Shown here in pieces: positions 6,905 to 45,927 of a stretch of 53,638 nt of DNA; within the stretch, counting starts at the first letter, position 1; every line of letters starts with the position of its first letter. The stretch spans positions 1 through 53,638 of the forward strand of contig MNYZ01000045.1 in NCBI GenBank assembly GCA_001873365.1. The letters are read 5' to 3'. The notes beneath the pieces are model-generated. The model was not told the origin of the DNA. It did no database searches and saw only the letters and a program-made list of their open reading frames with translations. This DNA comes from Oscillatoriales cyanobacterium CG2_30_40_61 (GTDB lineage Bacteria > Cyanobacteriota > Cyanobacteriia > Cyanobacteriales > Microcoleaceae). The position numbers were made by a program, and so were the translations under genes.

Positions 6905-7927
6905 CTATAGTAATCCGTGTAGGGGTTGTAATATTTTAGGGTAGGGGTTAATTTGCTCTCTAATCTGTATAGCAAGTTGTTGAAATAGGGGAATACAAAC
7001 AGAATTACCAATTTGTTTATAACATTCTCCCAAATTGGGATGCAGTTTAAAAGTATCAGGAAATCCCATAATTCTATAACATTCTCGGATAGTTAACTTA
7101 CGAACTCGATTTTCTTCGGGAATATAAATAAAAAAACGTCCCGATGTTTCCTGGGATGGAATAGTAGGATGGACTCCATCAATGGAGTAAATTCGATTCG
7201 GTTGGTGATGTACCCTAGACAAATGTTCGGTATTCGGTCTAATCCCTTTTTTCCAGATATTCTTATTTCGATATCCCACAAAAATTAAACCCGATAACTG
7301 CTGTTTATAATCCTCAATCAGCGTATATTCTTGAGGGTTTAAGTATTCAAATTCCCCCTTTTTATCTAAAAAATCTCTTAATTTAGGAATAGGATAAACC
7401 CTCTGCAATTTTGAGAAATAAAATTTTTTATCTTTGCAAGCTACAATAATTACTCGCTCTCGATTTTGCGGAAGTCCAAAGTCTTTAGCATTCAATAATT
7501 TATAATCAACAGCATAGCCTAAATCTTCTAAAGAATATAAAATAGTCTGGAGAGTTTTTCCCTGATCATGATATAACAAATGCTTCACATTTTCCAAGAT
7601 AATAACCCTGGGATGATGGATTGCTATAATTTCACAAATATGAAAAAATAGGGTTCCTCTAGTATCTTTAAATCCTTGGCGTTTTCCACAAATGCTAAAG
7701 GGTTGACAAGGAAACCCTGCGGTTAAAACATCAAATTTAGGCAAATTATTATAATCAATTTTAGTAATATCATCTTCTGGCTGTTCTCCAAAATTATTAA
7801 AATAGACCCATTGACAAGCGGGATCTTTTTCGCAAGCATAAACACATTGATAATCGGCTTTTTCAAAAGCCAATCTTAACCCACCGATTCCAGAAAATAA
7901 ATCTGCAATTTTAAGAGAATTATCCAT
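6905..7927 (-). CDS. Orphan DNA (cytosine-5-)-methyltransferase
   Basis: The product of 340 residues methylates cytosine C5 in a specific DNA site. Family motifs appear in order: motif I DLFSGIGGLRLAF (residues 9-21), motif IV AGFPCQPFS with catalytic Cys74, motif VI VIILENVKHLL, motif VIII-like QNRERVIIVA, and the C-terminal RECYRIMGFPDTF and QIGNSVCIPL (motifs IX-X). The target recognition region is around residues 215-275; its specificity cannot be read. I chose the ATG at 7927, because the longer reading from 7975 begins inside a CACAAAGACAC repeat. No restriction endonuclease is adjacent, so it appears solitary. Direct CACAAAGACAC repeats on both sides suggest acquisition or movement as a cassette, which is an inference. 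Confidence 0.9.
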   Translation of the reverse strand: MDNSLKIADLFSGIGGLRLAFEKADYQCVYACEKDPACQWVYFNNFGEQPEDDITKIDYNNLPKFDVLTAGFPCQPFSICGKRQGFKDTRGTLFFHICEIIAIHHPRVIILENVKHLLYHDQGKTLQTILYSLEDLGYAVDYKLLNAKDFGLPQNRERVIIVACKDKKFYFSKLQRVYPIPKLRDFLDKKGEFEYLNPQEYTLIEDYKQQLSGLIFVGYRNKNIWKKGIRPNTEHLSRVHHQPNRIYSIDGVHPTIPSQETSGRFFIYIPEENRVRKLTIRECYRIMGFPDTFKLHPNLGECYKQIGNSVCIPLFQQLAIQIREQINPYPKILQPLHGLL

Positions 7928-7951
7928 ATTATAACTATTGTATGTAGAAGT

Positions 7952-8117
7952 AACCACAAAGACACGAAGACACAAAGGAACCGATGAGGGTTTTCTATTT
8001 TTACCTGTTCAAAAATTTGTAACTAAGGTATGATTAAACCATACCCTTGCCACAACCCATATCCCATTAATTATCCTTGTTTATTTCTTCGTGTTTTTGT
8101 GCCTTTGTGGTAAAAAA
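7952..8117. repeat. MITE-like element with inverted CACAAAGACAC / GTGCCTTTGTGG ends
   Basis: The stretch begins AACCACAAAGACACGAAG and ends with TTCGTGTTTTTGTGCCTTT followed by GTGGT. The ends are imperfect inverted copies enclosing about 110 bases without coding potential. It occupies most of the 344-base gap between the methyltransferase and ychF. The rest of the gap, to 8271, is AT-rich and presumably holds the ychF promoter; I could not fix it. Confidence 0.55.
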
Positions 8118-8271
8118 TGCAGATACAGTGGATTCATTTTATCTTAATAATGAAACAATTTAAAAAAAGACTCCCTTTAAATTTGGATACAGCTTTGTTA
8201 AATTTGTCACCAAAAGGTTTATAATATTAAATCAAGTATTCTATTCAACGTTTAACTTAAACATCGAACCC

Positions 8272-9363
8272 ATGTTAACAGCCGGAATTGTTGGACTTCC
8301 CAACGTAGGTAAATCGACATTATTTAACGCTTTAGTTGCCAATGCCAAGGCGACTGCTGCTAACTTCCCCTTTTGTACTATTGAACCGAATGTCGGTGTT
8401 GTCGCGGTTCCCGATGAACGGTTGAAAATTTTAGCCAAAATCGTCAATTCTCAAGCAGTTGTTCCGACTACAATGGAATTTGTAGATATTGCCGGGTTAG
8501 TCAAAGGTGCGAGTCAAGGAGAAGGTTTAGGGAATCAATTTTTATCCCATATTCGAGAAGTGGATGCCATTGTTCATGTGGTTCGCTGTTTTGAAAATGA
8601 TGATATTATTCATGTTGCGGGTTCGGTTGATCCTTTGCGAGATATTGATATTATTAATTTGGAATTAGCCTTATCGGATTTATCTCAAGTTGAACGACGT
8701 ATTGACCGCGCCCGCAAACAAGCTAGAACTAATAAAGAAATCCAAATTGAAGTAAATGGTTTAGAAAAAATTGCGGTTTTATTAAATCAAGGAAAACCCG
8801 CCCGTCAAGCTATATTAACAGAAGAAGAACTAGAAGCAGTAAAAGGGTTGGGTTTAGTCACGCAAAAACCAGTAATTTATGCAACTAATGTCTCAGAAGA
8901 TGATTTAGCAACCGGAAACGAACAAGTGGAAAAAGTTCGAGAAGTGGCTAAATTAGATAATGCTGAAGTGGTCGTTATTTCGGCACAGGTAGAAGCGGAA
9001 TTAGTGGATTTATCGGAAGAAGAACGGGCTGATTTTTTGGCTTCTTTAGGAGTAGAAGAAGGGGGTTTAAAATCCTTAATTAGAGCCACTTATGAATTAT
9101 TAGGATTACGCACTTATTTAACCACTGGCCCGAAAGAAACCCGCGCCTGGACAATTAAAGCCGGAATGTCTGCGCCCCAAGCCGCCGGAGTCATTCACTC
9201 TGATTTTGAACGGGGATTTATTCGAGCTGAAACGGTGGCGTATAAGGATTTAGTTGCGACTGGTTCGATGAGTGCTGCCAAGGAAAAAGGATTAGTTCGC
9301 AGTGAAGGGAAAGAGTATATTGTCCAAGAAGGAGATGTACTGTTATTCCGATTTAATGTTTAA
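8272..9363 (+). CDS. ychF: Redox-regulated ATPase/GTPase YchF (OLA1 family)
   Basis: YchF is a universally conserved Obg-family P-loop protein that binds ribosomes, prefers ATP, and acts in stress responses and translation quality control. The 363-residue product has G1 GLPNVGKST (residues 8-16), G3-like VDIAGLVKGASQGEGLGN, and YATNVSEDD in place of the usual NKxD, which is the family hallmark underlying its ATP preference. The C-terminal TGS domain includes RAWTIKAG, QAAGVIHSDFERGFIRAE and VLLFRFNV. Length is standard. A strong hairpin terminator follows. Confidence 0.96.
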   Translation: MLTAGIVGLPNVGKSTLFNALVANAKATAANFPFCTIEPNVGVVAVPDERLKILAKIVNSQAVVPTTMEFVDIAGLVKGASQGEGLGNQFLSHIREVDAIVHVVRCFENDDIIHVAGSVDPLRDIDIINLELALSDLSQVERRIDRARKQARTNKEIQIEVNGLEKIAVLLNQGKPARQAILTEEELEAVKGLGLVTQKPVIYATNVSEDDLATGNEQVEKVREVAKLDNAEVVVISAQVEAELVDLSEEERADFLASLGVEEGGLKSLIRATYELLGLRTYLTTGPKETRAWTIKAGMSAPQAAGVIHSDFERGFIRAETVAYKDLVATGSMSAAKEKGLVRSEGKEYIVQEGDVLLFRFNV

Positions 9364-32134: not shown

Positions 32135-32237
32135 TGCTTCTACAGAAAAAAAATAGCGAGGGTATTATCCCAAAAACCCGGTTTCTTAAGGTTATATTAG
32201 GCTAAAATAAACTTAGGCTCGTTTGAATGATGTCATC

Positions 32238-34175
32238 ATGAGTTATTGCCTAAATCCCCAGTGTCCTCAACCCCAGAATACCCCAGAGGCTAAATTCTGT
32301 TTAACCTGTGGGGCAAAATTGTTATTAAGAGAACGGTATCGCGCCGTTAAAGTGATTGGTCATGGGGGGTTTGGCAAAACATTTTTGGCGGTGGATGAAG
32401 ATAAACCCTCCCGTCCCGCTTGCGTAATTAAACAATTTCATCCCCAAATGCAGGGAAATTGCCAAAAAGCTATTGAGTTATTTCATCGAGAAGCAGAAAG
32501 ATTAGATGAGTTAGGAAAACATCCCCAAATTCCTGAATTATTAGCCCATTTTGAACAAGACAATCATCAATATTTAGTCCAAGAATTTATTAATGGGCCG
32601 AATTTAGAAGCGGAAATTTTGGATCACGGGATTTTTAATGAAGCCCAAATTCGTCAAGTCTTAAATGATTTATTACCTGTGTTACAATTTATTCATCATC
32701 ATCGGGTAATTCACCGAGATATTAAACCCGCTAATATTATTCTTAGGGAAGGTTCTCAACGCCAAGGTCAATTAGTATTAGTAGATTTTGGAGCGGCAAA
32801 AGTTGTTACTGATACTGAAATTCCAATTATGGGAACAGTAATTGGTAGTCCCGAATATGTCGCCCCGGAACAAACCAGAGGACAGGCAATTTATAGCAGT
32901 GATATTTATAGTTTGGGGGTAACTTGTATTTATTTAATGACCCAAATTTCTCCTTTTGATTTATATGATATTCATGAGGATCGGTGGATTTGGCGAGATT
33001 ATTTAAAACAAAATTCTGTGAGTTCGGAATTAGGAAAAATATTAGATAAAATGTTAGCAGTATTACCCAGTCAACGTTATGATTCTGCTTTAAAAGTATT
33101 AAAAGATCTGCATCCGGGTGGCATACCTGTAGCGATCGCCCGCCATTTACAAACCCCATCTCCCCCAACTCCTGCCCCACAAACCGTTAGAACTCCCGCC
33201 CCATCGCACTCCCAGACCTTACCCCCCCGCACGATCCAACAACCCACACCGCCACAACAACAGCGTGTTCAACCGTTGCAGGTGCCCTCTTGGAAGTGTG
33301 TACATACCCTCAGTGGTCATCGCAATGCTATTACGGGAGTGGCTTTCAGTCCCGATGGCCAGACGTTGGCGAGTGGAAGTCAGGATCAGACGATTGAAAT
33401 TTGGCGGCTGGACTCGGGGAAACGGTGGTATACCTTGGTTGGTCATAGTAATTGGATCACGACTATTGCTTTTAGTCCTGATAGCAAGACTTTGGCGAGT
33501 GGGAGTCGGGATCAAACTATTGAAATTTGGGATATGACTAAGGGTAAAAGGTGGTATACCCTCACGGGTCATCAAGACGGGGTGGAAGGGGTGGCTTTTA
33601 GTCCCAATGGTCAATTATTAGCTAGTGGAAGTCGGGATCAAACTATTGAAATTTGGAATATGAATAAGGGAAAACGGGGGTTTACTTTAACAGGTCATCA
33701 GGATAGAGTTTATAGTGTGGCGTTTAGTTTGGATAGTCAAAAGTTGGCAAGTGGGAGTCGAGATCAAACGGTAAAAATTTGGGATTTAAACACAGCAAAG
33801 GAAGTCCAAACCTTAACGGGTCATGGGGACTGGGTGCGAAGTGTGGCGTTTAGTTTAAATGGTCAATTATTGGCTTCGGCGTCTAAAAATGGCATGATTA
33901 GAATATGGCACAATCAACAGGGAAAATGGGTATTATTAAAAACATTAAGGGCGGATGATCAAGAGATATTTAATATTATTTTTAGTCCAGATAATCAGTT
34001 TTTAGTGAGTGGAGGAGGACAGGGAATAATTGATATTTGGGATGTACAAAAAGGGATATTATTAGAAACCATTCCAGCCCATGATAGTGATGTTTTTACG
34101 GTGGCGTTTAGTGGTGATGGTCAATGGTTAGCAACGGGAAGTTATGACCGGACGGTGAAGTTGTGGAAACAATAA
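32238..34175 (+). CDS. Serine/threonine protein kinase with N-terminal zinc ribbon and C-terminal WD40 propeller
   Basis: The 645-residue product has a zinc ribbon (Cys 4, 9, 21, 24), then a Hanks-type kinase: glycine loop GHGGFGKT (41-48), catalytic Lys65 in CVIKQF, HRDIKPANI (159-167), DFGAAK (183-188), and a GSPEYVAPEQ activation segment. A Pro/Gln/Thr-rich linker (about 300-345) leads to seven WD40 repeats with GHRNAITGVAFSPDG, ASGSRDQTIEIW and YDRTVKLWKQ. All catalytic residues are present, so it should be active; the propeller likely recruits substrates. The ATG at 32238 is preferred to a TTG five codons upstream because Zn-ribbon similarity starts there. Several blades are nearly identical in DNA. 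Confidence 0.94.
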   Translation: MSYCLNPQCPQPQNTPEAKFCLTCGAKLLLRERYRAVKVIGHGGFGKTFLAVDEDKPSRPACVIKQFHPQMQGNCQKAIELFHREAERLDELGKHPQIPELLAHFEQDNHQYLVQEFINGPNLEAEILDHGIFNEAQIRQVLNDLLPVLQFIHHHRVIHRDIKPANIILREGSQRQGQLVLVDFGAAKVVTDTEIPIMGTVIGSPEYVAPEQTRGQAIYSSDIYSLGVTCIYLMTQISPFDLYDIHEDRWIWRDYLKQNSVSSELGKILDKMLAVLPSQRYDSALKVLKDLHPGGIPVAIARHLQTPSPPTPAPQTVRTPAPSHSQTLPPRTIQQPTPPQQQRVQPLQVPSWKCVHTLSGHRNAITGVAFSPDGQTLASGSQDQTIEIWRLDSGKRWYTLVGHSNWITTIAFSPDSKTLASGSRDQTIEIWDMTKGKRWYTLTGHQDGVEGVAFSPNGQLLASGSRDQTIEIWNMNKGKRGFTLTGHQDRVYSVAFSLDSQKLASGSRDQTVKIWDLNTAKEVQTLTGHGDWVRSVAFSLNGQLLASASKNGMIRIWHNQQGKWVLLKTLRADDQEIFNIIFSPDNQFLVSGGGQGIIDIWDVQKGILLETIPAHDSDVFTVAFSGDGQWLATGSYDRTVKLWKQ

Positions 34176-34239: not shown

Positions 34240-34557
34240 TCATTTAATGAGTCCCTGGGTGCGAAGTTTTTTAACTAAACCAGATTCACCTGCTTGTTGA
34301 CGTAACGTTTCAACATTCTCAAATCGTCGCTGTATATCGGCATCTAGTTCTTCTTTATTATCCCAGTAGTAAGCTAAGGTAGAATAAATTTGACTCATGC
34401 TTAAATAGGGATGTTGAAATTTAATTTCTTCGGGACTCCAACCAAAAGCAAGATGACCGGAAACTAATTCAATTACTTTCATGGTTGTTCCGGCAATGTA
34501 GGGAACGTTGTTTTCATTCAGTTCTATATACTTGTGTTGTGTCGTAGTCAAGTTCAT
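34240..34557 (-). CDS. DUF433 family protein, antitoxin-like
   Basis: The 105-residue product shows the DUF433 pattern: YIAGTTMKVIELVSGHLAFG, WSPEEIKFQHPYLSMSQIY, STLAYYWDNKEELDADI. DUF433 proteins contain a winged-helix/HTH fold and in many cyanobacteria precede a DUF5615 PIN-like toxin gene, for which they are predicted antitoxins. No such partner follows here: downstream is the end of the kinase gene on the other strand. Instead the gene lies between two 54-base direct repeats, as if the locus had been duplicated or partly deleted. Function is therefore inferred only from family. Confidence 0.85.
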   Translation of the reverse strand: MNLTTTQHKYIELNENNVPYIAGTTMKVIELVSGHLAFGWSPEEIKFQHPYLSMSQIYSTLAYYWDNKEELDADIQRRFENVETLRQQAGESGLVKKLRTQGLIK

Positions 34558-34631
34558 AGAGTTTGCCTCGTTACTGAATTTAATTATAGTATATTTTCGG
34601 CAATTTCTTCTAAAGTGCGATCGAGATCAAT

Positions 34632-34685
34632 AATTGATATTAATATAAGAAGGGGCGATCGCAAATACAATAATATTAAAACAAT
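34632..34685. repeat. 54-bp direct repeat, right copy
   Basis: Right-hand copy of the 34176-34229 sequence, with three substitutions. Just beyond its left edge, on the minus strand, DLDRTLEEIAENIL followed by a stop (about 34593-34635) resembles the tail of a lost gene upstream of DUF433, though this is a very short stretch. Confidence 0.85.
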
Positions 34686-34711
34686 TAAGTAGAGCAGCCG
34701 GACAAATCTGC

Positions 34712-35167
34712 TTACTCAAGCTGCCGGGGATCTTCTGAGGGAGGATGCCAGCCAGCCTGAACCCATAGCGTCCGGGCTTCTTGGATAGAACGTTCTCCTC
34801 TATAGCGTTCGTCGTTGAGGTCAAGACGCTCACAAGTGGCTCGACCGATAGGATTTGTGCCGACAATCTCCGTACCCTGTGCATTCCAGATGAAGTGGTC
34901 AGGCCATTGCTGTTGACGGGGATTAAATAAAGGCAGAATTGCTGAGGTTTCCACATCCCGACCCACAATGAAGTTATAACGACGCTGGTTACAGCGGCTA
35001 CAAGCTAAAGCCAGGTTATCAGGATCGTCGGAGCCACCTAGAGAGCGCGGCTGGATGTGATCGATGGTGAAACGAGAGGTGCTGATTTTCTCTGGAGAGT
35101 GGCAATATTCGCACAGGTAGCCTGCGCGTTTCCGCACAAGTTGCCTTGTCAATTCATTAATAGTCAT
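34712..35167 (-). CDS. HNH endonuclease
   Basis: The 151-residue product is a small HNH nuclease. It has zinc-ribbon cysteines in GYLCEYCHSP and LACSRCNQRR, and the HNH core FTIDHIQPRSLGGSDDPDNL with catalytic His in DHI and Asn in DNLALAC. The C-terminal part (FNPRQQQWPDHF, GTNPIGRATCERLDLND) is the common extension of this HNH subfamily in cyanobacteria. Its start codon overlaps the end of the 78-residue partner by four bases, so the two are translationally coupled. Targets are unknown; possible roles include homing, defence or toxin activity. Confidence 0.92.
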   Translation of the reverse strand: MTINELTRQLVRKRAGYLCEYCHSPEKISTSRFTIDHIQPRSLGGSDDPDNLALACSRCNQRRYNFIVGRDVETSAILPLFNPRQQQWPDHFIWNAQGTEIVGTNPIGRATCERLDLNDERYRGERSIQEARTLWVQAGWHPPSEDPRQLE

Positions 35168-35521: not shown

Positions 35522-38500
35522 TTAGAGGCTAGTTCTTGAGGCAATGTATTTTTTTAACGCCTCGATGACTTCTTCAGCAGACTTCTGACCAAAGTTTTCA
35601 ATTTCTAAGAGGTCTTCTTTAGTATAACCTCGTAAGTCTTCTACTGAGTTGATTTGAGCGCGTTTGAGACAGTTGTAAGTCCGAACGGATAACTGTAATT
35701 CTTCAATCGGGATTGGACTTGGAGTTGGACTTGGAGTTGGGCGTGGTGTCGGACTTGGGGTTGGATGTGGTGTCGGACTTTGAGTCACCCGAACAATTTT
35801 AATCTCAGCTAAATCGCTAATATTCTCTGGGATAGCTTTAGCATAAATTTTATAACTTCCTTTAGCATTCTTTGATGGAATAAAATAACCATTCTGATCA
35901 ATATTTCCCCCTGTTGCATCCCATTCAATGCAATTAAGTGTGATCACATCTCCTTGTTGATCAAATCCAGTGACTTGAAATTGACAACCCTGTTGAGGTT
36001 GAAGGTTAGCTTCTAGCTGTATTTTTAACTTCCTTAAAACAGGAACAACCTGGATATTAACAGAATCACTAATTTGAGCCAAATTAATACAAGAGTCACC
36101 CACCCAATTTAATAAACGAACACTTATTTGAATCGCCTGTTTGATCAACCATGCTTGAAAAGCGATTTCAAAATTAGATAGTTCTGAAGACGAATTTTGC
36201 TTACAAGCGGGAGAGATATTATTAGTTGTTTCAGATTCCTCTTGAATCTCTGTTTCAGATTCTTCTTGAATCTCTGTTTCCGCAGCATTAGACAATAATA
36301 CACTTTGAATTTTATCACTCAGAGAAAATAACCGTTCTGCCCAGTAAATACTCCGAGATATTAATTTTGTATAAATGCCAAAGGCTAATATTTTTGAGCG
36401 AATATCACAGGGAGATAATGGAGAAACTTTAGCCGTTACTTTATATGACCCTTTATCATTATCCTTAGCGGTAAATTTCCCATTCCGATCAATTCTTCCC
36501 CCTTTTGCTTCCCAGACAATATTTCCTGTTTCAAATTTATTTTCATATTGATCAAACCCAACGACATTAAAAGTTATACTTTCATTCGGTTCAAGAAAAA
36601 TATTTTGAGGGGGATAAATTTTAATCCGTCTTAAAACAGGTAATATATTAACAGTTGCACTAACTTGAAGTAAGCCAACTTTAGCCGTTACAGTAACTTG
36701 CCTTTTATCGTAACCGCCCTTAAAAATTCCCTCTGGGTTAATTCGACCTCCTGCGGTACATTTCCATTCAATATTATTCACCCAAAACCAATCTCCAATC
36801 TGATCTAAACCCATAACTTGAAACGTGATAGGTTCATTAGGTTCAGCAAAAATAGTCTGAGGTGAAATAATCAGATCAGTTAAAATAGAAGGAACAATAA
36901 TTTTAGCCGTTGCGCTAATTGTTTGACCCGGAATTGAAGCAATGACGGTGAATTGTCCTTGACTATTATCCCCAACAGTATAATTTCCCTTGTCGTAAAT
37001 TGTGCCCCCGGTTGCAGTCCAATTGACATTTTTAATTGAAATAGGATTACCTCTTTGATCTAAACCCTCAACTGTAAATTGATAGGTTTGACCAGGGTAC
37101 ATTTCTATCAATAATGGAGAAATAATCAAAGAGGTTAATCTTGGACGTTCAATAACTTCAACTTGGATAGATTGACTAATAGTTTGAACCTTTGCGGTAA
37201 TAGTAACCGTTTTTTCAAAGCGACCCGCAACAAATATTCCATTATTAGGAAGTTGTATATTGTCAGCCGTCCAAGTGACTTGTCCGATGGAAATAGGTTG
37301 ATTATATTGATCAAAACCTTTAACATTAAATTGTTGAGAGTCACCACAATATAAAGTTTGTCCTGAAGGATTAATTATTAACGATGTTAGTTTGGGGTTT
37401 TCAGGAATTGTAATTATAATTTGACAATTAACAGAGTTAACTTGTGCTTCTATTTTAAAGTTAGAACCTGATATATTTCCGGCTGTAAATAGTCCATTTT
37501 TAATTGTTCCCCCCGTGGCCGTCCAAGTGACTTGTCCGATGGAAAAAGGTTGATTATATTGATCAAACCCTTTAACATTAAATTGTTGAGATTTACCACA
37601 ATATAGACTTGTTTCTGGAGGATCAATTTTTAAGGATGTTAGTTTAGGTTTTTCAAGAATTGTTATTAAAACTTGACAACTAACTGAGTTAACCTGTGCT
37701 TGAATTTTAAAGTTAGAACCTGATATATTTCCGGCTTGGAATAGTCCGTCTTCGACCTCTCCTCCTGTAGCAGTCCAAGTTATATTTTCAATTTTAATCG
37801 GTTTATTATATTGATCAAAACCTTGAATAGTAAACTCTTGATAGTCACCACAATATAAAGTTTTTCCTGGGGAATTAATTTTTAACGATGTTAGTTTAGG
37901 AGACTCACCTTCTAAAATATTTAAAATTTCTCCTGTTTGTAAATTCCAAAGTTTTATCCAATCTCGACTACCGCTTACAAATCGTTGATTATTAGAACTA
38001 ACAGCAATAGAACTAATAAATCCAGCATGACCTGTAATTTTACGAGGTTGATTAGTGTTTTGAATATAAATACTGCCATTATGGGTTCCTATTACTTTGG
38101 TATTACCATTAGAAGTAATATCAAAATCAGTCATGATTTGAAATTTTCCCGAGGTAGTCTTAATACACTTCAAATCCTTGACGGGTAATTTTAAATTAGA
38201 TTGATTATTGTCCTTTCTAAAAAAGAAAGCACGGGTTAAAAGAATTAAAACAGGAATATTTAAACTCAAGGTTAAAAAAGGAAGATTTAAAGATTTTATC
38301 ACTATTAATTCCGCTAAAATCGCTGATATAATCCAGACAATGATATAGCCCAAAGGAATATTAAATTTTTCAGTTTTGGCTGGACTATTAGGATCTTTTT
38401 GCCAGATTTTAAGAGTTCCATCTCGACTGCCTGTAACTAAAGATTTATCATCAGAACTAATGGCGACATTTTGAATCCAATCTGAATGTTCTTCAAGAGT

Positions 38501-39232
38501 TTTTAATAATTGTTTTTGGTTTAAATCCCATAATTTGATTGTTTTATCTGTACTTCCACTCACTAAAAATTTACTATCTGAACTTATTGCTAAACAAGAA
38601 ATCCATCCGGTATGACCGTTAAAAGTATGGACAAGTTGTTTCTTTTCTAAATTCCATAATTTAATCGTTTTATCTGCACTTCCACTAATTAAGGTTTGAT
38701 TATCTGGGGTAATTTTAACCACATTAACCCAACTTGTATGACCTGTAAAAGTATGCAAAAGAGTTTTAGTTTTTAAACTCCATAACTTAACGGTTTTGTC
38801 AATACTGCTACTGACTAAATATTGACCATTGGAACTAATCGCAACGGATAAAACCCAATGGGAATGGGCGTTAATTGTATCAACTAATTTTCCTGTATCT
38901 AAATTCCAAATTCTGATGGTTTTCCAACCGCCACCGACGATAATTTTATATTCTGAACTAATTGCTACACAAGAAATTGTATCTTGTACTAAATTATTAG
39001 GCGATCGCAAATTAACATTTTCAGTTAAATACGGATTATCACCATATAGCACCCAATAAGCGGATTGTTTAACATCTTCTGAAGGGTTGGTTAATGCCTG
39101 TTGTGCCAGTAAATCCAAGCCTTCCTCAACTTTTAGACAGTCTGAAAGGGCTGTAAGTCGCTGTTGGATGTCTGGACTGGTGAATTTACCCCGAAGTTTC
39201 TGGATAGCTTGCCGTTCAGAGGGTTCGGTCAT
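35522..39232 (-). CDS. Giant membrane WD40 / Ig-like-repeat protein with C-terminal RNA polymerase alpha-CTD-like domain
   Basis: The 1236-residue product is a mosaic. Residues 1-70 look HEAT/ARM-like ([20 protein letters not shown]). Residues about 75-285 carry five WD40 repeats; two membrane helices follow (about 291-312 and 316-337), then two more WD40 repeats to about 440. Six Big/Ig-like repeats follow (TSLKI...GFDQYN...WTATGG), a helical insert with an EIQEESET duplication, and a seventh such repeat. After a Pro/Thr-rich linker ([14 protein letters not shown]), residues 1176-1236 match the RNA polymerase alpha C-terminal domain: [35 protein letters not shown]. The alpha residues that bind UP-element DNA appear conserved (Arg1184, Asn1187, Cys1188, Gly1215, Lys1217, Ser1218). 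Function unknown. A divergent HNH-like/membrane gene lies 154 bases away. Confidence 0.88.
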
Positions 39233-44928: not shown

Positions 44929-45927
44929 CTAACTCGCCAAATATTCGCGCACTTGAGCTTTACGACGGCGCAGGTGGTTCAACGCTTGGCTTTCGAGTTG
45001 ACGAACCCGTTCACGACTGATGCTCATTTGTACCCCCACTTTAGATAGGGACATCTCCTTACCATCTTCGAGTCCATAACGCAGGGTAATCACTTCCCGT
45101 TGTTGGGCCGTTAAGTCCGCCAGTAAATTTTTCAAGTCCTGACGCAGTAACTCTTGAGTGACAAAAGCATCGGCGGAAGTATTATGATCTTCGAGGAGGT
45201 CTTGCAATTCCGTATCTTGATTATCCCCCACCCGCAAATCCAAAGACACGGGATGACGAGACGCCAATAGATAATCCCGAATTTGAGCCGGGTCTAACTC
45301 TAACGCTTGAGCAATCTCCCCGGGAGTGGCGTTGCGTCCTAATTTCTGCACTAACTCCCGTTGAACTTTTTTAATTTTGTTCAGTTTTTCGGTAATATGA
45401 ATGGGCAGACGAATCGTGCGAGAAGTTTGGGCAATGGCACGGGTAATCGCTTGGCGAATCCACCAGTAAGCGTAGGTCGAGAATTTATATCCCCGCATGG
45501 GGTCGAATTTCTCCACACCCCGTTCTAAACCCAGGGTTCCTTCTTGGATTAAATCCAAGAATTCCATATTGCGTTTTTGATATTTCTTAGCAATGGAAAC
45601 CACTAAACGCAAATTGGCTTCGATCATTTTTTCCTTAGCCCGGCGTCCTTGCTTCAAGATGGTTTGAAGTTCCTCTGGACTGATTTCCACCGCCTCAGAC
45701 CACTCCTGCTGACTTGGTTCTCGACCCAGTTGTTCTGCGAGAGTATTTTTCACTTCCAACTGTTGCATCATGGTCTGTACCTGCTTACCGTAGGTAATCT
45801 CCTGTTCTCGGGTCAGTAAAGGAACGCGCCCAATTTCATGCAAATAGGTACGAACTGTATCGGTAGTTACCGGTCGAGTGCTTCTGGAAGCCACTTGCTC
45901 TTTATATGTAGTATTGACAGTTGGCAT
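44929..45927 (-). CDS. Group 2 RNA polymerase sigma factor (sigma-70 family, SigB/SigD-like)
   Basis: The 332-residue product is a non-essential-type (group 2) sigma factor. It lacks the long N-terminal region 1.1 and starts near region 1.2 (VRTYLHEIGRVPLLTREQEI). Region 2 is complete: ANLRLVVSIAKKYQKRNMEF, LDLIQEGTLGLERGVEKFDP, and the -10 recognition region GYKFSTYAYWWIRQAITRAI. Regions 3 and 4 follow, with QREVITLRYGLEDGKEMSLS and the -35 recognition helix ISRERVRQLESQALNHLR. Which paralogue (SigB, SigC, SigD or SigE) cannot be settled here. Such factors respond to stress, light or nutrients. A candidate promoter lies about 240 bases upstream. Confidence 0.92.
   Translation of the reverse strand: MPTVNTTYKEQVASRSTRPVTTDTVRTYLHEIGRVPLLTREQEITYGKQVQTMMQQLEVKNTLAEQLGREPSQQEWSEAVEISPEELQTILKQGRRAKEKMIEANLRLVVSIAKKYQKRNMEFLDLIQEGTLGLERGVEKFDPMRGYKFSTYAYWWIRQAITRAIAQTSRTIRLPIHITEKLNKIKKVQRELVQKLGRNATPGEIAQALELDPAQIRDYLLASRHPVSLDLRVGDNQDTELQDLLEDHNTSADAFVTQELLRQDLKNLLADLTAQQREVITLRYGLEDGKEMSLSKVGVQMSISRERVRQLESQALNHLRRRKAQVREYLAS

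Follow-up and report, generated by a model that had tools for sequence, protein, structure and literature searches.

The gene at 35522..39232 (minus strand) of the window, that is, of the whole 53,638-nucleotide stretch of DNA analysed, encodes a protein of 1236 amino acids (ATG start) in which HEAT-like helices, a WD40 propeller with a hydrophobic hairpin, Ig-like repeats and a linker precede a C-terminal domain of the RNA polymerase (RNAP) alpha subunit (alpha-CTD). It is one allele of a family whose C-terminal slot, in relatives, holds a near-whole alpha, the primary or a different sigma, or what is probably omega. Sequence comparison shows that alpha, the primary sigma and a sigma resembling SigD have been captured. 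Our main reading, to which we give a probability of roughly 0.45, is that the gene is one of a family of cyanobacterial scaffolds whose slot has repeatedly been filled with the cell's own RNAP subunits, the tail serving as an address or bait and not as a subunit. The first-pass annotation knew of no described counterpart of the domain order. No description was found, but the arrangement does not stand alone, relatives bearing other RNAP-subunit tails.

All parts of the gene lie on the minus strand. Residues 1-62 (39047..39232) form four helices in an AF2 model, the name HEAT-like being our own reading. WD40 blades 1-5 (residues 88-279; 38396..38971) are recognised by Pfam WD40 (E=2.5e-56) and by AF2 strands. 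They are followed, inside the propeller, by a hydrophobic helical hairpin (residues 294-338; 38219..38353), identified by hydropathy and modelled with low pLDDT as helices 294-313 and 327-338, and then by the final two blades (residues 354-439; 37916..38173), seen as AF2 strands. The model of residues 1-460, which shows the parts in this order, has a pLDDT of 79.6 and a pTM of 0.77. On our count of the modelled strands (88-279 and 354-439) the propeller is predicted to have seven blades; 7-bladed propellers, designs included, are among the best PDB matches. The Ig-like (Big) repeats (residues 445-1148; 35789..37900) rest on a single stretch matching Big_1 (E=7.2e-09) and on the scaffold alignment A1, in which a helix-rich insert (residues ~941-1055; 36068..36412; helicity judged by eye) is aligned across homologs. 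An (SPTP)n linker (residues 1151-1174; 35711..35782) marks the point where the C-terminal modules diverge among Planktothrix relatives, and leads to the alpha-CTD (residues 1174-1227; 35552..35713).

The alpha-CTD proposed for the C-terminus by the first-pass annotation is genuine. It occupies the last ~55 residues, where PF03118 (RNA_pol_A_CTD) scores E=1.9e-22 and 79.2 bits (cut-off 23.8), and NCBIfam RpoA models cover the same stretch. In the PDB the top match by sequence is the alpha chain of an RNAP (8syi, E=6.1e-25); 9dvs, with the same alpha sequence, is Syn7942 RNAP according to its title. A search of the genome itself gave three alpha-CTD matches at E<=1, two of them, the true rpoA and the window gene, above the PF03118 cut-off. 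The six residues named as equivalents of the E. coli DNA contacts R265, N268, C269, G296, K298 and S299 are all present (Arg1184, Asn1187, Cys1188, Gly1215, Lys1217 and Ser1218). Another helix-hairpin-helix family was rejected for the last 72 residues, the NusA repeat (2e-05) and LigA (3.8e-04) falling far behind RpoA (3.1e-26). After the last core helix the window residues depart from the native alpha ending and the frame stops early, as judged by eye from a DNA comparison.

Ten Planktothrix genomes, the window genome (G000) among them, were searched with the Ig region, which matched in eight; this search found no scaffold in G002 or in G005 (73% complete). Near-complete RpoA tails with 3, 3 and 2 alpha-CTDs are present in G001, G009 and G003, respectively. 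In G008 an RpoA with one CTD lies on a 4.2-kb contig and the scaffold contig finishes in a short odd tail; the gene appears to be divided between contigs C63 and C34, and we infer that the two pieces are one gene. In G004, G006 and G007, where the gene has the neighbourhood seen in the window, the tail is a sigma factor. Over 328 aa these fused sigmas (G004, G006 and G007) are 95.1, 97.3 and 96.0% identical to the G004 SigA (393 aa); with the other sigmas in the comparison the identity is 42.8-48.2%. The alignment begins at region 1.2, the acidic N-terminal part of SigA being swapped for other sequence. In G006 the RpoD model scores above its cut-off and Pfam finds regions 2, 3 and 4. At least one flank (cell-wall enzyme, Uma2-like, kinase/WD40) is common to G000, G001, G004, G006, G007, G008 and G009, with some parts missing; the G003 copy retains just two small genes from it.

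The window protein, in contrast to those of G001, G003 and G009, has no alpha-NTD, and its lone alpha-CTD is most likely the remnant of an alpha fusion. An assembly artefact was rejected as the source of the fusion because G001 and G009 (5-contig assemblies) carry it in full within contigs of 5.46 and 4.78 Mb. The exact deletion in the window could nevertheless be assembly-made, since repeats break assemblies. It is rather improbable that the whole arrangement is a relic, that is, a chance fusion via the repetitive linker, of which the window allele, with its missing NTD and altered C-terminal end, would be a decaying copy. Recombination may be easy at a repeat linker, the window copy has no in-frame NTD and shifts frame at its end, and a transposase splits the sigma-tailed gene of G007. 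Yet chance is unlikely to have brought together two RNAP subunits at one locus and, elsewhere, a further sigma and what is probably omega, and the window domain retains all six DNA contacts.

Selection argues against decay as well. Ratios of dN/dS were calculated by the Nei-Gojobori method with our own script, and gene conversion could contribute to them. The fused alpha-NTDs give 0.30-0.41 among themselves (six pairs; 0.08 for the closest pair, G001/G009) and 0.10-0.18 against nine native alphas, with a fused-native dS of 0.42-0.62; the six native pairs shown give 0.06-0.15. For the fused sigmas the values are 0.06-0.11 (three pairs), for native SigA 0.006-0.036. Fused alpha and fused sigma are thus under purifying selection, with dN/dS far under 1. 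Together with the dS values this indicates that the tails are old, intact and constrained, less so than the native genes.

Do the fused subunits work in RNAP? The core is bound by alpha, sigma and omega alike, so that a fused copy of any of them might enter the enzyme and tether transcription to the membrane or the scaffold. The sigma tails suit such a role: they are strongly constrained and, from region 1.2 onward, nearly identical to SigA. Other observations make it doubtful that the fused parts are working subunits. The window alpha-CTD is without the half of alpha that assembles, and tandem CTDs are abnormal for alpha. The four fused alphas also break 1, 1, 2 and 2 of 62 positions invariant across 13 native alphas. 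Five of these six breaks lie among the 14 invariant positions at 31-49, which we take to be the core-contacting stretch (chance ~0.003, calculated post hoc). In a leave-one-out count the nine Planktothrix natives break 0 or 1 position; the number is 2, 3 and 4 for three further natives and 47 for a single one that is very divergent. As natives of other genera break several positions too, the count is suggestive only. From the sequences, the broken positions would point to fused alphas that do not assemble into RNAP. The Planktothrix RpoA itself shares its C-terminal module with the window protein, and the NTDs of the full fused versions differ from the rpoA of G000 at 18-34 of 229 alignment columns; unlike RpoA, the fused copies sit on a long scaffold, have two or three CTDs in three relatives and break the conserved stretch.

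The distribution of tails does not follow species lines. By native rpoA, G001, G009 and G000 (alpha tail) cluster with G004 and G007 (sigma tail), and G003 and G008 (alpha tail) with G006 (sigma tail). Within the genus the fused alphas group as a single clade on nucleotides (support 1.000; 0.425 on proteins). The fused sigmas do not resolve into one clade, and supports are weak in a tree of the scaffold N-terminus. Alternation of alpha and sigma at one locus, across species lines, recalls the integrated decoys of plant NLRs, in which a host target is copied onto a scaffold as a lure. The likeness is an analogy without homology, and a decoy role is putative here: an RNAP-subunit tail might lure phage proteins directed at the alpha, sigma or omega of the host, which they would modify or hijack, and their binding would trip the WD40/Ig scaffold. 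We regard this as unlikely on balance. Equally doubtful is its extension to a bacterial integrated-decoy locus, where the scaffold would exchange alpha, sigma and omega lures and an arms race would keep the alleles across species; alleles would then alternate because phages target different subunits. Such a role gains from this alternation, from the three alpha-CTDs of G001 and G009 and from the fact that phages do target alpha. Alpha is ADP-ribosylated by enzymes of T4, and Rac leads to cleavage in its linker, which detaches the CTD (PMC7552054).

The window neighbourhood also bears on a decoy role, as a PD-T4-6-like kinase and a PtuB-like HNH protein adjoin the scaffold. The kinase gene (32223-34175, plus strand) encodes a Ser/Thr kinase with a WD40 propeller, matches PADLOC PD-T4-6 models (best E=6.8e-135) and adjoins the scaffold, or part of it, in seven of the eight scaffold-bearing Planktothrix genomes, G003 being the exception. 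PADLOC kinase models are, however, unspecific, and the window kinase matches 36 families. Between kinase and scaffold (34240-35167, minus strand) lie small genes for a 105-aa protein, present in several strains, and for the HNH protein (PtuB-like, 1.6e-10); the content of this interval varies between strains. A stand-alone sigma-70 gene is found at 44929-45927 (minus strand), ~6 kb from the scaffold gene. Against a decoy, no effector domain was recognised. The only PADLOC model matching the window protein is HEAT-ARM_XIII (residues 83-244); beyond it no core protein of a known anti-phage system in PADLOC was matched. The nine flanking ORFs scanned in three other genera showed no defence-island context either and have ordinary functions, among them an ABC transporter, GH31 and cytochrome c assembly.

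Of 388 genomes in the order, 45 contain a match to residues 780-1150 of the window protein at E<=1e-6, many of the weak matches being ORFs of ~1000 aa. Within the family the 15-row scaffold profile A1 matches 15 of 61, and in a sample drawn across the class 6 of 388; all six fall within the order, to which other members of the sample may also belong. Among 29 scaffold proteins, a set that leaves out the interrupted gene of G007 and G172, nine end in an RNAP part (G000, G001, G003, G009, G004, G006, G137, G201 and G011), 11 in WD40, five in a WFYRSQLFYDGYS-like tail and three in something else, the odd tail of G008 making up the remainder. A majority of homologs (20/29) have no RNAP part, which counts against the main reading. 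The aromatic WFYRSQLFYDGYS-like tail is common to the homologs at L039 (5432..9433), L086, L087, L083 and L094 and gave no Pfam match in the three scanned.

Scaffolds of G137 and G201, from another family, carry a sigma only 41.8-43.0% identical to the Planktothrix fused sigma, from which we infer a probable separate capture. In G137 Pfam finds sigma regions 1.2, 2, 3 and 4. For both proteins the best NCBIfam model is SigD, nearly full length and below its cut-off. The G201 scaffold sits on plasmid pGM01 of Geminocystis sp. NIES-3708. Its gene table, self-described as incomplete, names only the sigma part (7840-8853 of our locus L134) of a frame open for 1390 codons, so that the choice of start site in annotation may hide such fusions. 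A total of 53 plasmid records matched; among the best 20 of the 53, only the Geminocystis record covers the scaffold well, two are weak DUF499 matches and the remainder cover the alpha-CTD. In phage records no scaffold was found, all 15 matching records covering the alpha-CTD only, which counts against a decoy.

A second alpha-CTD match occurs in 18 genomes of the order outside the genus. None of the 15 such genes read (those of G342, G360 and G361 were left out) has a window-type scaffold; at the G342 locus no ORF matched in the scan. The second RpoA of G210 resembles contamination, in our view. Small proteins of other cyanobacteria end in an alpha-CTD closely resembling the native one (L106, 3165-3893; L109, 3791-4543), and similar proteins of 202-257 aa with a C-terminal alpha-CTD-like domain occur in one family (f33) of the order (L110, L112, L113 and L117). 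A 1121-aa protein (L104, 5177-8542) combines an alpha-CTD match with a stretch that, by eye, is sigma region-4-like.

The scaffold tail of G011, a genome of another genus, is probably omega, that of G172 tentatively so. Against RNA_pol_Rpb6 the G011 tail gave E=1.4e-04 and 22.3 bits in one scan, under the 26-bit cut-off, and 26 bits, above the cut-off, in a search of 30 scaffold genomes; the G172 scaffold, a 589-aa ORF at a contig start, gave E=0.0023, under the cut-off. The search of 30 genomes yielded 34 matches at E<=0.1: 30 taken as native, the G011 and G172 tails, a second stand-alone omega-like gene in G011 (L121, 1349-1615) and a weak match in G383. Other tests speak against omega. With an HMM built from five native omegas, both tails score close to shuffled sequences: the G011 tail is beaten by none of its own 500 shuffles and by three shuffles of the G172 tail, the G172 tail by 1 of 500 shuffles. 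The hhalign probability for omega is 1.4% (G011) and 57% (G172), and a PDB sequence search found no omega at E<=1. Folded unaided from its single sequence, the G011 tail reaches a pLDDT of 74. Its top match among 350,542 PDB chains is chain E (55 aa) of the Syn7942 RNAP-SigA holoenzyme, presumably omega (TMt 0.70; E=1.4, hence not significant alone); nothing in that structure search reached E<=0.001.

The protein had further been described as a membrane WD40/Ig sensor. It is a WD40/Ig protein with a hydrophobic segment, but a stretch of this kind near the end of the fifth blade is found in 17 of 29 homologs and is missing after that blade in five Planktothrix proteins (G001, G003, G004, G006 and G008), so that a membrane sensor is not a constant feature of the family. 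In G137 and G044 the hydrophobic stretch is at the N-terminus instead. A hairpin of two helices, as modelled, would place the C-terminus on the WD40 side. Since WD40 and RNAP parts would then share one side, the cytoplasm would be the simplest assignment for it.

In open-licence papers we found neither alpha nor omega described on a scaffold of this type, nor any exchange of subunits. A survey counts WD40 (8.39% as given) among the accessory domains carried by sigma-70 homologs of cyanobacteria (PMC11119718). Its proteins share the sigma/WD40 pairing and may belong to the present scaffold family. There the main text does not mention Planktothrix, Geminocystis or Ig-like domains, and nothing was found in it on alpha, omega or exchange at one locus. 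EAD10 systems likewise comprise a proposed conflict protein with an RNAP-addressing module, but this is GreA/B-C, with PIN and TPR, not alpha, sigma or omega, and a WD40/Ig scaffold is not described in the section on them (PMC8195603). Neither GreA/B-C nor PIN was found among the best 25 of 57 Pfam matches of the window protein or among all seven of its Ig part. BREX PglW contains a stretch matched by the window domain (NF033442, E=4.6e-04, last 72 residues); it is a kinase of other architecture, and the likeness is far below that to RpoA. We know of no WD40/Ig scaffold in the MZA system. Its MzaA is a sigma-70 protein of an anti-phage system (PMC9523054) and in this resembles the sigma-tailed scaffolds, setting a precedent favourable to a decoy; it belongs to mzaABCDE, unlike the single scaffold gene. 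The sigma of the G137 scaffold matches the MzaA PADLOC model at 1.1e-41, and ordinary sigma models match it more strongly.

We return to a tail that serves as an address or bait. The slot would have been filled more than once by copies of the cell's own RNAP subunits. Each captured part would display RNAP-subunit surfaces at the tip of a flexible arm, where they would hold, sense or titrate RNAP partners, and would itself stay outside RNAP. Partners of the alpha-CTD include UP-element DNA, sigma region 4, activators and factors attacking alpha. Of the nine alpha-CTD copies found in four relatives, six each have one DNA contact replaced (N268T, K298Q or S299N), which argues against plain UP-element binding as their common job. 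Among the roles first proposed for the window tail (recruiting RNAP, titrating it, or imitating alpha), we favour imitation or bait, and the missing alpha-NTD makes an address or bait preferable to a working subunit. The near-identity of the fused sigma to SigA from region 1.2 onward weighs on the other side, as it equally suits a working sigma.

We found no published description, in open-licence papers, of a scaffold family that repeatedly adopts interchangeable tails from RNAP subunits. Tails acting as lures would make it the bacterial equivalent of integrated decoys, and tails that tether RNAP would make it a transcription device linked to the membrane. Alpha- and sigma-tailed versions of the same gene in closely related strains make both readings directly testable.
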